Source: Methanosphaera sp.
Lineage (GTDB): Archaea > Methanobacteriota > Methanobacteria > Methanobacteriales > Methanobacteriaceae
Length of the DNA: 36,669 nucleotides
Reading direction: 5' to 3'
NCBI RefSeq assembly: GCF_016282985.1
Contig: NZ_JAEELZ010000078.1
Coordinates: 1-36,669, forward strand
Below, in pieces: positions 4,911-31,220 of the stretch. Each line of letters begins with the position of its first letter. Within the stretch, counting starts at the first letter, position 1. The notes under the pieces are model-generated. The model saw only the letters and a program-made list of their open reading frames with translations, was not told the origin of the DNA and did not search any database. A program made the position numbers and the translations under genes.

Positions 4911-5229
4911 AATATAATACGGCAGTACCATTAACGCTGACTAATATTGTATTTCCCATTGTACCACCAAGATTACTATACTTAATTCTTACATTTATAA
5001 TCGCATTTGCACCTAATTCTGTAGCTTTTTCTTCCATACTTTTTAATGCTAATTCCCTGGCTTTTTTTAATTCATCTTCATAAGTAGAAGTTCTTCCACC
5101 AACAACATCTCTTACACCCGAGAAGATATCCTTATAAACATTAGATCCAATTAAACCTTCACCATTCACTATACCAAAATATTTTTTTACCGTTTTTCCA
5201 TCAATATCTGGTGTTGTTACCATCAACAT
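4909..5229 (-). CDS. YbjQ/UPF0145 family protein
   Basis: A 106-aa protein matching the small YbjQ-type family: [28 protein letters not shown], a central [34 protein letters not shown] segment, then [19 protein letters not shown]. The family is called a putative heavy-metal-binding domain, but no biochemical role is firmly established. Soluble, with no signal peptide. AAGGAT precedes ATG 5229; a second ATG two codons in (5223) is an alternative start. It stands alone on the minus strand, converging on tfrB. The 204-base gap to the next gene holds only AT-rich DNA with promoter-like stretches. Confidence 0.8.
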
Positions 5230-5433
5230 AAAAAATCATCCTTAATTAAATTATTTAACATGAAAAAATTTTTTTAATTTTATTTTTAACTATTTACATT
5301 AATAATAATGATTTATAAGTATATAAACTTTTATATGAGTTGATAATTATTATTTCAAGTATTTAATGTAAAATAAAAAATAAGAGAAATTTATTTTAAA
5401 AAAATTATACAGAAATATATATAGTGATTATAT

Positions 5434-6144
5434 TTGAAAATTTATACTGTATTTGTTGAACCAAAAACTCCTGGAAATATAGGATTTTTAGCAAGATCTA
5501 TGAAAAACTTTGGATTGAAAAAATTAGTATTAATCAATCCCTGTGAACTAGAAAATAGTGCTTATTATCAAGCAAGTCATGCAAGAGATGTTGTTCAAGA
5601 TGCTAAAATATATGATACACTTTCAGAGTTTATAAAAGACAATGAAATTACAACAGTTGTAGGAACTACCGGTACAGCTGGAGGTAGTTACAATATTCCA
5701 CGTATTCCAATAACACCAAATGAACTTGGAAAAAGTATGTGCATTGATGGAAATATTGCATTACTATTTGGAAGAGAAGGTGAAGGATTAAGTAATGACG
5801 AATTGGAATTATGTGACATCCTTGTTACAATCCCCACCAGTGAGGAATATCCTATAATGAACATTAGTCATGCGGCTGCAATTGTATTCTATGAAATTTA
5901 TAAAAATCAAAAAGAGTATCCTGTTGAAAATATGGAAATTGCTAGTTTTGAGGAAAAAAACATAATCACTGAATTATGTAATGAAATTATTTCTAAATTA
6001 GATTATCCTGATCATAAAAGGAAAAATGTAGAAATAATCACAAAAAGAATAATAGGTCGTGCATTTATAGCAGGCCGTGAATCAAAAATGTTGCGTGGAA
6101 CACTTAAACGTATAAATGTTAGAATAAAAACAAAAGAGGAATAA
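5434..6144 (+). CDS. TrmJ-type tRNA 2'-O-methyltransferase (SPOUT family)
   Basis: A 236-aa SpoU/TrmH-class methyltransferase. The three family motifs are visible: EPKTPGNIGFLARSMKNFG at the N-terminus (motif 1, Asn and Arg), LLFGREGEGLSNDELELCD (motif 2), and PIMNISHAAAIVFYE (motif 3), forming the trefoil-knot SAM site. The C-terminal 70 residues are a helical basic extension, as in archaeal TrmJ, which methylates the ribose of position 32 in tRNAs. It starts with TTG (5434); the sequence directly after it, KIYTVFVEPKTPGNIG, is the usual family start, and no better start lies upstream. dcd follows after two bases, so 5434-9255 looks like one operon. Confidence 0.85.
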   Translation: MKIYTVFVEPKTPGNIGFLARSMKNFGLKKLVLINPCELENSAYYQASHARDVVQDAKIYDTLSEFIKDNEITTVVGTTGTAGGSYNIPRIPITPNELGKSMCIDGNIALLFGREGEGLSNDELELCDILVTIPTSEEYPIMNISHAAAIVFYEIYKNQKEYPVENMEIASFEEKNIITELCNEIISKLDYPDHKRKNVEIITKRIIGRAFIAGRESKMLRGTLKRINVRIKTKEE

Positions 6145-28346: not shown

Positions 28347-29402
28347 CTATATTGGATAACGTAAAAATGAAGCAATTGAACCTAAAGATTCCAATTGTTT
28401 ACCGGCATCATGTTCACTACTGATAATTTCTACTGTTCCACCCATATTTTCTACTGTATTCATTATATTTTGAGTCTCTTTTTCTCTAACAAAAGTATCT
28501 AAGACAAGTAATTTTTCTGTTGCTCCCATATTTGTAGCCATTGAAACTTGTTTTACTCCATAAGTTACCAAATTAGAAGATTTACCTATCTGTTCTAATA
28601 ATTTATTTACTGAAGATATTTCTGATGCAATTTTAGCATCTTTTGACAATGATTCTATGAGACCATTTTTAAGAACTTCTTGAATACCTGCATGACCACC
28701 AGAACCTGTACTTTCCAATATAGACTTTTTAGCCAAATCAGAGTGATGTTCTTCTAAATAATTATAATATCCATTTTTAGTAAAACCCGGCCCAATTATA
28801 ATTAGTTTGTTTATTTTATCAAACTGTCTAATAGTTTTAGTAATCTCTTCATAATAATTATTTATTTTATCTTGACGATCTTTTGCAATATTTCTTTTTC
28901 CTGAAATATCCCCAATAATAGGACCTATATAATCTATACCATACTGTTTAATTATTCCTAAATCAGCAGTATTGTCTTCTATTGCAATAATTATTTCAGT
29001 AGGTCTTTTAGAAGAATCTACTGCCTGTTGTAACCTATCCAATGACCATTTATTCCATCTTTTTTGGATTTTTATACTGCTATTTATTTGTACATTTATT
29101 GTATGATGAGAACCTAAAGGTATTAAATCTTCAGGACCTGATTCTATTACACCAGTAAAACGTAACATTCCAGTATATTTATGGAAACTTATCTTTTCAA
29201 CACGAATTCCCAAGAAAAATGTTTTTTTAACTCCCCGATCAGCTCTGGTTTTTCCACTATCATTATCTTGAATACGTCTCGTAGTTAAAGTTGATACAAA
29301 ATCATTTTCTTCCACAATATGTGATAAATGCCATAAATCATCAATACTTTCTGGAATAACTTCTATTAATCCCTGTTTTTTATCCTGATTTTTTATTTGC
29401 AT
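28347..29402 (-). CDS. pelA: Pelota, mRNA surveillance / ribosome rescue factor
   Basis: A 351-aa eRF1-like protein. The N-terminal Sm-like domain has GLIEVIPESIDDLWHLSHI, then TTRRIQDND and ADRGVKKTFFLGIRVEKI. The middle domain has IIGPGFTKNGYYNYL, and the C-terminal domain ends in VEIISSEHDAGKQLESLGSIASFLRY. With aEF1A/Hbs1 function and ABCE1 it splits stalled ribosomes. I start at ATG 29402 because MQIKNQDKKQGLIEVIPE aligns with other archaeal pelota N-termini; ATG 29423 would add seven residues and has no ribosome site. Confidence 0.92.
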   Translation of the reverse strand: MQIKNQDKKQGLIEVIPESIDDLWHLSHIVEENDFVSTLTTRRIQDNDSGKTRADRGVKKTFFLGIRVEKISFHKYTGMLRFTGVIESGPEDLIPLGSHHTINVQINSSIKIQKRWNKWSLDRLQQAVDSSKRPTEIIIAIEDNTADLGIIKQYGIDYIGPIIGDISGKRNIAKDRQDKINNYYEEITKTIRQFDKINKLIIIGPGFTKNGYYNYLEEHHSDLAKKSILESTGSGGHAGIQEVLKNGLIESLSKDAKIASEISSVNKLLEQIGKSSNLVTYGVKQVSMATNMGATEKLLVLDTFVREKETQNIMNTVENMGGTVEIISSEHDAGKQLESLGSIASFLRYPI

Positions 29403-29539
29403 ACTTCTTTCTATGATTTTCATTTTTAATAATTATTATGTCAAATAATAAATATTATGATTAAATGATAAATTAGTAATACTTTTATATGATTAATAAT
29501 AAAATTAGTAATACAAAAACAAAGGTGAATAAAAAAATT

Positions 29540-29848
29540 ATGAACGCAGAACAAAAAAAATATTTAGTTAAAACAATTGAAGAATCAGGAGAATGGGAAA
29601 GAATTGAAACAACAATTGATGGATTATTTGTTGTAAAACCTCCTGAAAATAATAATAAACAAATGGTGTTCGTTGAATTAGTTCCAACCATTAAAGGACA
29701 AGCAATAAAGAAAAAAGGTATTTATCTGAAATCAACAGAAGACTTAGAAGCATATAAAGAATTATTAAATAATCCCAAAACTAAAGAATTAGTGGATGTT
29801 ATATCAGAATATTATGGAAAAAGAAAAACCCCCAAAATAGAAATATAA
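29540..29848 (+). CDS. Unknown 102-aa protein upstream of tyrA
   Basis: I do not recognise the family. The protein starts MNAEQKKYLVKTIEESGEWERIETTI, then a beta-rich part GLFVVKPPENNNKQMVFVELVPTIKGQ, and ends in a charged helix (TEDLEAYKELLNNPKTKELVDVISEYYG) and a basic tail. It is soluble, without Cys or metal motifs. GGTGA at 29524-29528 lies before ATG 29540, so I prefer this start to the longer frame from 29489. tyrA begins 40 bases downstream and may be co-transcribed. Confidence 0.7.
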   Translation: MNAEQKKYLVKTIEESGEWERIETTIDGLFVVKPPENNNKQMVFVELVPTIKGQAIKKKGIYLKSTEDLEAYKELLNNPKTKELVDVISEYYGKRKTPKIEI

Positions 29849-29888: not shown

Positions 29889-31220
29889 ATGACTTGTGAA
29901 AATATTAAAAATGTGACTATTATCGGAGGAACACGAGGTTTAGGAAAATGGATTGCTCAACAACTTAGTAAAGAAGGATTGAATGTCACAATCACAAGTC
30001 GTAACAAAACTTCTGGTGAAAAAATAGCTAAAAAAATTAATACTGGGTATAGTAATGATAATATTGAAGCAATTGAAAATGCAGATTTAATTATTTTTTC
30101 TGTCCCTATAGAAAATATGGTAGAAACTATTAAAGATGTTGCTCCTTATGCTCCCGAAAAATCTTTACTAATGGATATTACATCAGTAAAAAAAGAACCA
30201 ACAGAAGCTTTAATAAAATATGCACCAGAAAACACGGAAATATTACCCTGCCATCCAATGTTTGGGCCTAGAGTTCCATCAATAGAAGGACAAGTTGTAA
30301 TATTAACTCCAATTGAAAATAGATCAAAGAAATCTTTTGAAAATATAAAAAAATTTTTAGAAAATAAAAACACACATATTGTAATATCAACTCCGGAAGA
30401 ACATGATAAAATAATGAGTGTTGTACAAGGAATTACACATTTTTCATATATCAGTATAGCTTCTACTATAAAAAAATTGGATATCAGTGTAAAAAAATCC
30501 AGAGAATTTGCTAGTCCAATATATAGTCTTATGTTAGATATGATAAGTCGTATTGTATCCCAAAATCCGTACTTATATTATTCTATTCAAAAATCTAATA
30601 ATGAAACGGCTATTTCAAGAAAAACTTTAATTGAAGAAAGTATCCGTTTATGTAACCTAATTGAAAATGGAGAAGAGGAATTGTTTGTAGAAAATATGAG
30701 TAATTCTGCCAAACATTTAGATGAATTTGAAGAAGCTTTAGGTAGATCAGATAAAGCAATTAATGTTTTAACTAACGATTTGAATGTGTTAAAAAAATCC
30801 ATAGGGGAAGAAATTGGTGTTGAACACCAATATTCCAAAAAAATACATGTTGGAACTGTTGAAAATGTTACGGCAGATACTGTTACTTTAATCAATGACA
30901 ATAATCAAAAGACAACCTTGAAAATTTCAAATATTAACAAATTATCTGATGAAGAATTGTTCAACTGGAAGAAAAACAATACAAAACTATGTGAATTTGA
31001 TGTTTCAGTAATGTTTCCTAAACGCTGCAATAAAAATATATTGCTAAATATGTTTAAAAATATTAAACCAGTAATAAACGTTGAATTGATTGATGTTTAT
31101 ACTGGAGAACAAATTCATGAAGACAACATGAGTTTAACATTCCATTACTCCACATTTAATAAACATGAAAAGAATTATGTTGAGAATTATCTGAAAGGAA
31201 TCGGTGGAATAATTAGATAA
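29889..31220 (+). CDS. tyrA: Prephenate dehydrogenase with C-terminal FDX-ACB-like domain
   Basis: A 443-aa protein. Residues 8-165 are the NAD(P) domain (IIGGTRGLGKWIAQQL, IFSVPIENM, LMDITSVKKEP, CHPMFGPRVPS). Residues 170-300 are the helical dimer domain with QGITHFSYIS, which carries the catalytic His. A small beta-like linker spans about 308-365. Residues 370-443 contain VELIDVYTGEQI and SLTFHYSTF, a close match to the FDX-ACB domain of phenylalanyl-tRNA synthetase beta. It oxidatively decarboxylates prephenate to 4-hydroxyphenylpyruvate for tyrosine. The tail may be regulatory. AAGGGG precedes ATG 29889. Confidence 0.9.
   Translation: MTCENIKNVTIIGGTRGLGKWIAQQLSKEGLNVTITSRNKTSGEKIAKKINTGYSNDNIEAIENADLIIFSVPIENMVETIKDVAPYAPEKSLLMDITSVKKEPTEALIKYAPENTEILPCHPMFGPRVPSIEGQVVILTPIENRSKKSFENIKKFLENKNTHIVISTPEEHDKIMSVVQGITHFSYISIASTIKKLDISVKKSREFASPIYSLMLDMISRIVSQNPYLYYSIQKSNNETAISRKTLIEESIRLCNLIENGEEELFVENMSNSAKHLDEFEEALGRSDKAINVLTNDLNVLKKSIGEEIGVEHQYSKKIHVGTVENVTADTVTLINDNNQKTTLKISNINKLSDEELFNWKKNNTKLCEFDVSVMFPKRCNKNILLNMFKNIKPVINVELIDVYTGEQIHEDNMSLTFHYSTFNKHEKNYVENYLKGIGGIIR

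Follow-up and report, generated by a model that had tools for sequence, protein, structure and literature searches.

The C-terminal domain of the prephenate dehydrogenase (TyrA) encoded in the window, the whole stretch of 36,669 nucleotides of Methanosphaera sp. DNA analysed here, is, beyond reasonable doubt, a homologue of the FDX-ACB/B8 anticodon-binding domain of bacterial phenylalanyl-tRNA synthetase (PheRS). Judging from the alignments, the C-terminal extension (REG) of which it forms part very probably holds a functional ligand pocket maintained by selection, and is most likely an allosteric sensor with a pocket of the type that reads guanine 34 (G34) in PheRS. FDX-ACB, which has been described as a PheRS domain common to bacteria and mitochondria (PMC8409312), is found here on an archaeal enzyme of the tyrosine pathway, across several phyla and with its base-reading pocket intact.

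The architecture, which the original prediction had regarded as possibly unstudied, was already reported by Song et al. (2005), who named the C-terminal extension of archaeal TyrA TyrA-REG (COG4937) and considered it presumably regulatory (PMC1173090). The window TyrA, being an archaeal prephenate dehydrogenase extended at its C-terminus, matches that description, and the same architecture was found in Methanobacteriota, Altiarchaeota and others, the comparison with COG4937 being made by description. The TyrA-REG paper makes no mention of an anticodon domain, and the regulatory role of REG is presumed there (PMC1173090). Within the literature searched, in which few subscription papers were covered, no paper joins FDX-ACB with prephenate dehydrogenase and none tests REG; likewise, no TyrA-FDX-ACB fusion appears in a survey of fusions in archaea. 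Later COG releases presumably label COG4937 as FDX-ACB. Compared with the papers searched, an intact and apparently selected G34 pocket, the two-domain layout of the tail and the erosion of second copies would be new, and a ‘presumably regulatory’ label of 20 years' standing becomes a concrete hypothesis with four named residues and one RNA base.

Homology and domain layout of the TyrA tail

Full-length TyrA matches the equivalog NCBIfam NF006408 (E = 3.7e-201), identifying the protein as a prephenate dehydrogenase, with Pfam domains PDH_N at residues 22–165 and PDH_C at 168–271. The top Foldseek matches of the catalytic part are the prephenate dehydrogenases 2pv7, 4wji and 5uyy. The AlphaFold2 model of the whole protein (mean pLDDT 92, pTM 0.76) shows, beyond the catalytic part, a helix (280–303), a barrel of five strands (308–351), a second helix (354–364) and a ferredoxin-like domain (368–443). 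Five residues of the connecting helix, S287, D288, K289, A290 and I291, are strongly conserved in the alignment.

Table 1. Features of tyrA and its product, with positions in the window.
Feature	Positions	Strand	Basis
tyrA, prephenate dehydrogenase with C-terminal REG extension	29889..31220	+	443-aa ORF
Catalytic dehydrogenase (Rossmann) and dimerisation domains, residues 1–271	29889..30701	+	Pfam; Foldseek
Connecting helix, residues 280–303	30726..30797	+	AlphaFold2 secondary structure, alignment
SH3/Sm-like small beta-barrel, residues about 305–352	30801..30944	+	AlphaFold2 five-strand barrel, conservation
FDX-ACB-homologous ferredoxin-like domain, residues 368–443	30990..31217	+	Pfam/TIGRFAM, hhalign, Foldseek
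D402-V403-Y404, equivalent to T. thermophilus (Tt) PheRS beta Asp729 and Tyr731	31092..31100	+	hhalign; numbering from 2iy5_B
S415, equivalent to Tt PheRS beta Ser742	31131..31133	+	hhalign; spacing as in Tt
R443, C-terminal residue, equivalent to Tt PheRS beta Arg780 / human mitochondrial Arg414	31215..31217	+	hhalign

A PheRS-like FDX-ACB tail had originally been claimed for residues 370–443 (30996–31217) from a motif seen by eye, VELIDVYTGEQI at 398–409 and SLTFHYSTF from 415. This claim was borne out by sequence profiles, by hhalign and by the predicted fold, and the motif match proved to be real, although single-sequence BLASTP of TyrA against E. coli PheT gave no match and profiles were required for proof. 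Pfam FDX-ACB (PF03147) matches residues 371–428 of the full protein with E = 7e-5; with the C-terminal 143 aa alone the match has E = 1.3e-5 and 26.0 bits, below the gathering cut-off of 31.1. The same tail is matched by TIGR00472 pheT_bact (E = 4.6e-8). When diverse TyrA tails were considered, FDX-ACB matched all 18 (best E = 2.7e-9) and pheT_bact 17 of the 18. In a PDB search with a profile of TyrA tails, bacterial PheRS beta chains ranked first (E = 2e-4), and hhalign of the tail profile with 14 bacterial PheT domains gave E = 8.8e-13 and a probability of 97.8 over 82 columns.

The predicted structure of the tail (AlphaFold2, pLDDT 93) has a beta-alpha-beta-beta-alpha order in its ferredoxin-like domain and superposes in Foldseek on PheRS FDX-ACB domains at 2.5 Å over 93 columns (7k98_E) and 2.8 Å (6p8t_F). 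Profile search and structure prediction, both suggested with the original prediction, agreed in finding FDX-ACB and a PheRS-like fold and in finding no ACT domain: TyrA has no Pfam ACT match at E up to 10, and no ACT fold appears among the best 50 PDB Foldseek matches of the predicted tail. An ACT identity of the tail was rejected, as neither Pfam nor the 50 best fold matches point to one. Foldseek also returned MscS channels (TM about 0.3, rmsd > 10 Å), which we judged to share an Sm-like plus ferredoxin-like order by chance.

The domain identity first proposed holds, but the tail is not a single domain. According to the AlphaFold2 model it is made up of two, with a five-strand SH3-like barrel preceding FDX-ACB. 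The sequence of the barrel weakly matches the RimP C-terminal SH3 domain (PF17384) and DUF2642; the RimP match (E = 0.004, 17.7 bits against a gathering cut-off of 26.3, shared by 3 of 18 relatives) does not place residues 305–352 in that family. An origin of the entire tail in PheT was rejected, since longer PheT alignments in hhalign support the FDX-ACB part alone; a TIGR00472 match that starts further upstream in one relative was likewise not sustained. In the alignments the barrel residues H313, Y315, S316, H320, G322 and N348 are nearly invariant. Within 30825–30932 (residues 313–348), H313, Y315, S316, H320 and N348 resemble a second functional site.

The G34 pocket and its conservation

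In Thermus thermophilus PheRS, G34 is read by Asp729, Ser742 and Arg780 through hydrogen bonds and by Tyr731 through stacking (PMC9976931). The corresponding residues of human mitochondrial PheRS are Asp364, Phe366, Ser375 and Arg414, and its mutants are unequally affected: D364G inactivates the enzyme, R414A weakens it and S375A leaves it almost normal (PMC7540514). By hhalign the TyrA equivalents of the four Thermus residues are D402, Y404, S415 and R443. The numbering of D729, Y731 and S742 was checked on the PDB row 2iy5_B; Arg780 lies beyond that row and was taken to be the conserved Arg with which PheT ends (GAxLR), the residue that hhalign places opposite R443. The Tyr-to-Ser spacing is the same in the window TyrA and in Thermus, with Ser 11 residues after Tyr.

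Conservation of the pocket was followed in two sets of non-redundant TyrA sequences, 172 in all. In the first (117 sequences from Methanobacteriota, Altiarchaeota and others), D/E is found in 116, Y/F in 114, S in 112 and R in 110, and all four pocket residues are intact in 110/117. The second comprises 55 further sequences, mostly of another archaeal phylum, with D and Y/F in 55/55, R in 54/55 and S in 43/55 (otherwise mostly G or A). Here Y404 and S415 are separated by anything from 1 to 42 residues (in most sequences 4 to 10), one group having inserts; G406 and Q408 drift, G406 being gone in about half, while the pocket contacts stay. The drifting contact is S415, whose counterpart is also the least important in human mitochondrial PheRS. 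In one group of Methanoliparum's phylum (L219–L224, L248–L252) the inserts in this loop reach about 40 residues, and S415 is mostly Gly or Ala. A divergent TyrA (L238, genome G405) has a weakly matching tail that lacks the pocket Ser and Arg.

Thirteen positions are nearly invariant in PheT. The four contacts among them are retained in 90–95% of the 172 TyrAs; for the remaining nine the figure does not exceed 80%, where they are present at all. Permutation against random positions of the domain gave p = 3e-5 and 2e-4 for the two sets, values that ignore phylogeny and are descriptive. Other features set the TyrA domain apart from PheT: it is 11 residues shorter in the region of the second helix, it lacks the PheT RTLTDEE segment, and two alanines conserved in PheT are fixed in TyrA as Ser and Thr (S373, T417). 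The hydroxyls of S373 and T417 may lie near the pocket on the same face of the sheet, as the alternation of residues along the strands would place them there. Net charge was discarded as a test of RNA binding: the domain averages −2.6 in TyrA and −3.0 in PheT, and the charge of the TyrA tail favours neither side because the PheT domains are acidic as well.

Distribution, gene context and second copies

TyrA is the only FDX-ACB match in the window's genome. The PheT of this genome is of the archaeal type (a 572-aa frame) and has no FDX-ACB, in agreement with the description of archaeal PheRS as lacking this domain (PMC3275996). Both tRNA-Tyr and tRNA-Phe of the genome have G34. Within the window's phylum, 117 of 150 genomes have an FDX-ACB match, almost always in a frame of roughly 440 aa, and 3/150 exceed the Pfam cut-off. 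In another archaeal phylum, 16 of the 23 genomes scored above the cut-off, with up to 47.8 bits; the domain is carried by 70/295 genomes of Methanoliparum's phylum and, in another archaeal phylum, by only 6/200, all of one genus. TyrA-REG occurs in relatives such as Methanobrevibacter, Methanosphaera, Altiarchaeota and Methanoliparum. An FDX-ACB match above the cut-off was also obtained in the control genome, M. jannaschii, and presumably lies in TyrA. A tblastn search of plasmids with the TyrA tail gave no match.

In the fetched loci full-length REG is always found on TyrA, with two exceptions: L158, a frame whose catalytic part is too small to pass the threshold, and an orphan remnant, L061. 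The latter (5060–5476, genome G068) is a free-standing TyrA tail of 139 aa. A reading of it as a free-standing REG gene was rejected, since it lacks the catalytic part, has lost the pocket and adjoins a transposase; it is probably a decaying second tyrA.

Gene neighbourhoods were judged by eye from ORF starts at eight loci, and no synthetase gene adjoining tyrA was recognised among them. The flanking genes in Methanobacteriales are pelota and cdc48; an aroE-like gene precedes tyrA in Methanoliparum, and an ilvC-like gene follows it in one member of the Altiarchaeota. Between the pelota-like gene of the window (28347–29423, − strand) and tyrA lies an ORF of 119 aa (29489–29848, + strand), present in relatives (e.g. 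L079, L120), which matches no Pfam family above cut-off (weak Mre11_C, 16.4 bits).

In the window's genus and in g4, a related genus of the same family, several genomes encode two TyrAs. The second copies (L062, L063, L064, L065, L067, L068, L069 and L015, from these two genera) form one clade with SH-aLRT 99 and group more closely with the window's TyrA than with the first TyrA of their own genome, which suggests gene transfer between related methanogens. Of the eight sequences with a broken pocket, five come from genomes that also have an intact TyrA and represent second copies or the orphan remnant; the remaining three are L043, L075 and L076. The pocket is intact in the second copies L015, L065, L068 and L069. 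Loss of the pocket mostly in second copies that keep the dehydrogenase fits a pocket serving regulation rather than catalysis or folding, the events being few.

Candidate ligands and comparison with known systems

We propose that the archaeal TyrA tail is a regulatory module, composed of an SH3-like barrel and an FDX-ACB domain of common ancestry with that of PheRS, in which the pocket D402/Y404/S415/R443 would bind a ligand and thereby set TyrA activity. The two functions suggested originally, an effector domain replacing ACT and tRNA binding, would both come down to this one pocket. As ligand we propose the guanine at position 34 of a tRNA with G34, tRNA-Tyr (GUA) being the most plausible, such that free or uncharged tRNA-Tyr would signal tyrosine demand to the enzyme making the tyrosine precursor. 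Among tRNA-Tyr, free tyrosine and a guanine nucleotide, tRNA is slightly favoured, because the tail contains an anticodon domain whose base pocket is unchanged, and because the tRNA-Tyr and tRNA-Phe of the genome have G34. The full chain, from regulatory tail through G34 pocket to tRNA, is offered tentatively, and direct regulation of an archaeal prephenate dehydrogenase by tRNA, with the tail gripping G34 of tRNA-Tyr, a shade more tentatively still. If true, tyrosine supply would be tied to the state of tRNA within one polypeptide, a direct link of translation to amino-acid synthesis that needs no transcriptional or ppGpp-type relay. Several points count against tRNA as the ligand. Biosynthetic enzymes are controlled much more often by small-molecule feedback than by tRNA sensing, G34 by itself does not specify tRNA-Tyr, and S373 and T417 hint at an altered ligand.

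Moreover, a free aromatic amino acid could fit a site of Asp, Arg and stacking Tyr just as well. A pocket re-used for L-tyrosine, another aromatic amino acid or a keto acid, acting as an ACT-like feedback sensor, is a serious if not a probable alternative. In such a site Asp402 and Arg443 would hold the polar groups and Tyr404 would stack on the ring; the newly conserved S373 and T417 are consistent with it, and H313, Y315, S316, H320 and N348 of the barrel could complete a small-molecule site. Feedback regulation is common among TyrA enzymes, and the prephenate dehydrogenase of M. maripaludis is inhibited by tyrosine (Porat et al., cited in PMC1173090), although this inhibition may act at the TyrA active site. 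Against tyrosine, a change of ligand would usually alter at least one of the four base contacts, which are here among the most conserved positions, and the tail lacks an ACT match both in Pfam and among the best 50 PDB fold matches. Should tyrosine be the ligand, an anticodon pocket would have been re-used as a metabolite sensor.

It is improbable that the domain is merely a structural or oligomerisation unit, with the four residues kept for folding. Glycines 322 and 439 and several strand residues of the tail are conserved too, and dimer contacts are frequent for ferredoxin-like domains; however, the same four residues face an RNA base in PheRS, they are kept where the adjoining loop varies in sequence and length, and pocket residues have gone from second copies in which the dehydrogenase is retained. 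Free GTP, GDP or GMP, by which the domain would read energy or purine state, could fit residues that touch the guanine base in PheRS, but a guanine nucleotide as ligand is likewise improbable, as no phosphate-binding motif was recognised in the TyrA tail and no link of this kind to tyrosine synthesis is known.

The preferred reading, a sensor tail with a G34-type pocket, can be set beside three known systems. The FDX-ACB/B8 domain of the bacterial PheRS beta chain and of mitochondrial PheRS (PF03147) is likewise C-terminal, homologous and ferredoxin-like, with the same four G34-contact residues; it is joined to a synthetase, whereas that of TyrA is joined to a dehydrogenase. The Bacillus-type prephenate dehydrogenase TyrA-ACT (e.g. 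5uyy) also combines a dehydrogenase with a C-terminal ferredoxin-like regulatory domain, but TyrA-REG differs from it in having an extra SH3-like barrel, another ancestry and no ACT match. HisZ, a regulator of HisG that is derived from HisRS and serves histidine feedback, is a precedent for the sensing of tyrosine itself. In HisZ-HisG, too, a synthetase-derived module regulates the biosynthesis of its amino acid; HisZ is a separate subunit derived from the HisRS catalytic core, whereas TyrA carries a fused anticodon-binding domain.
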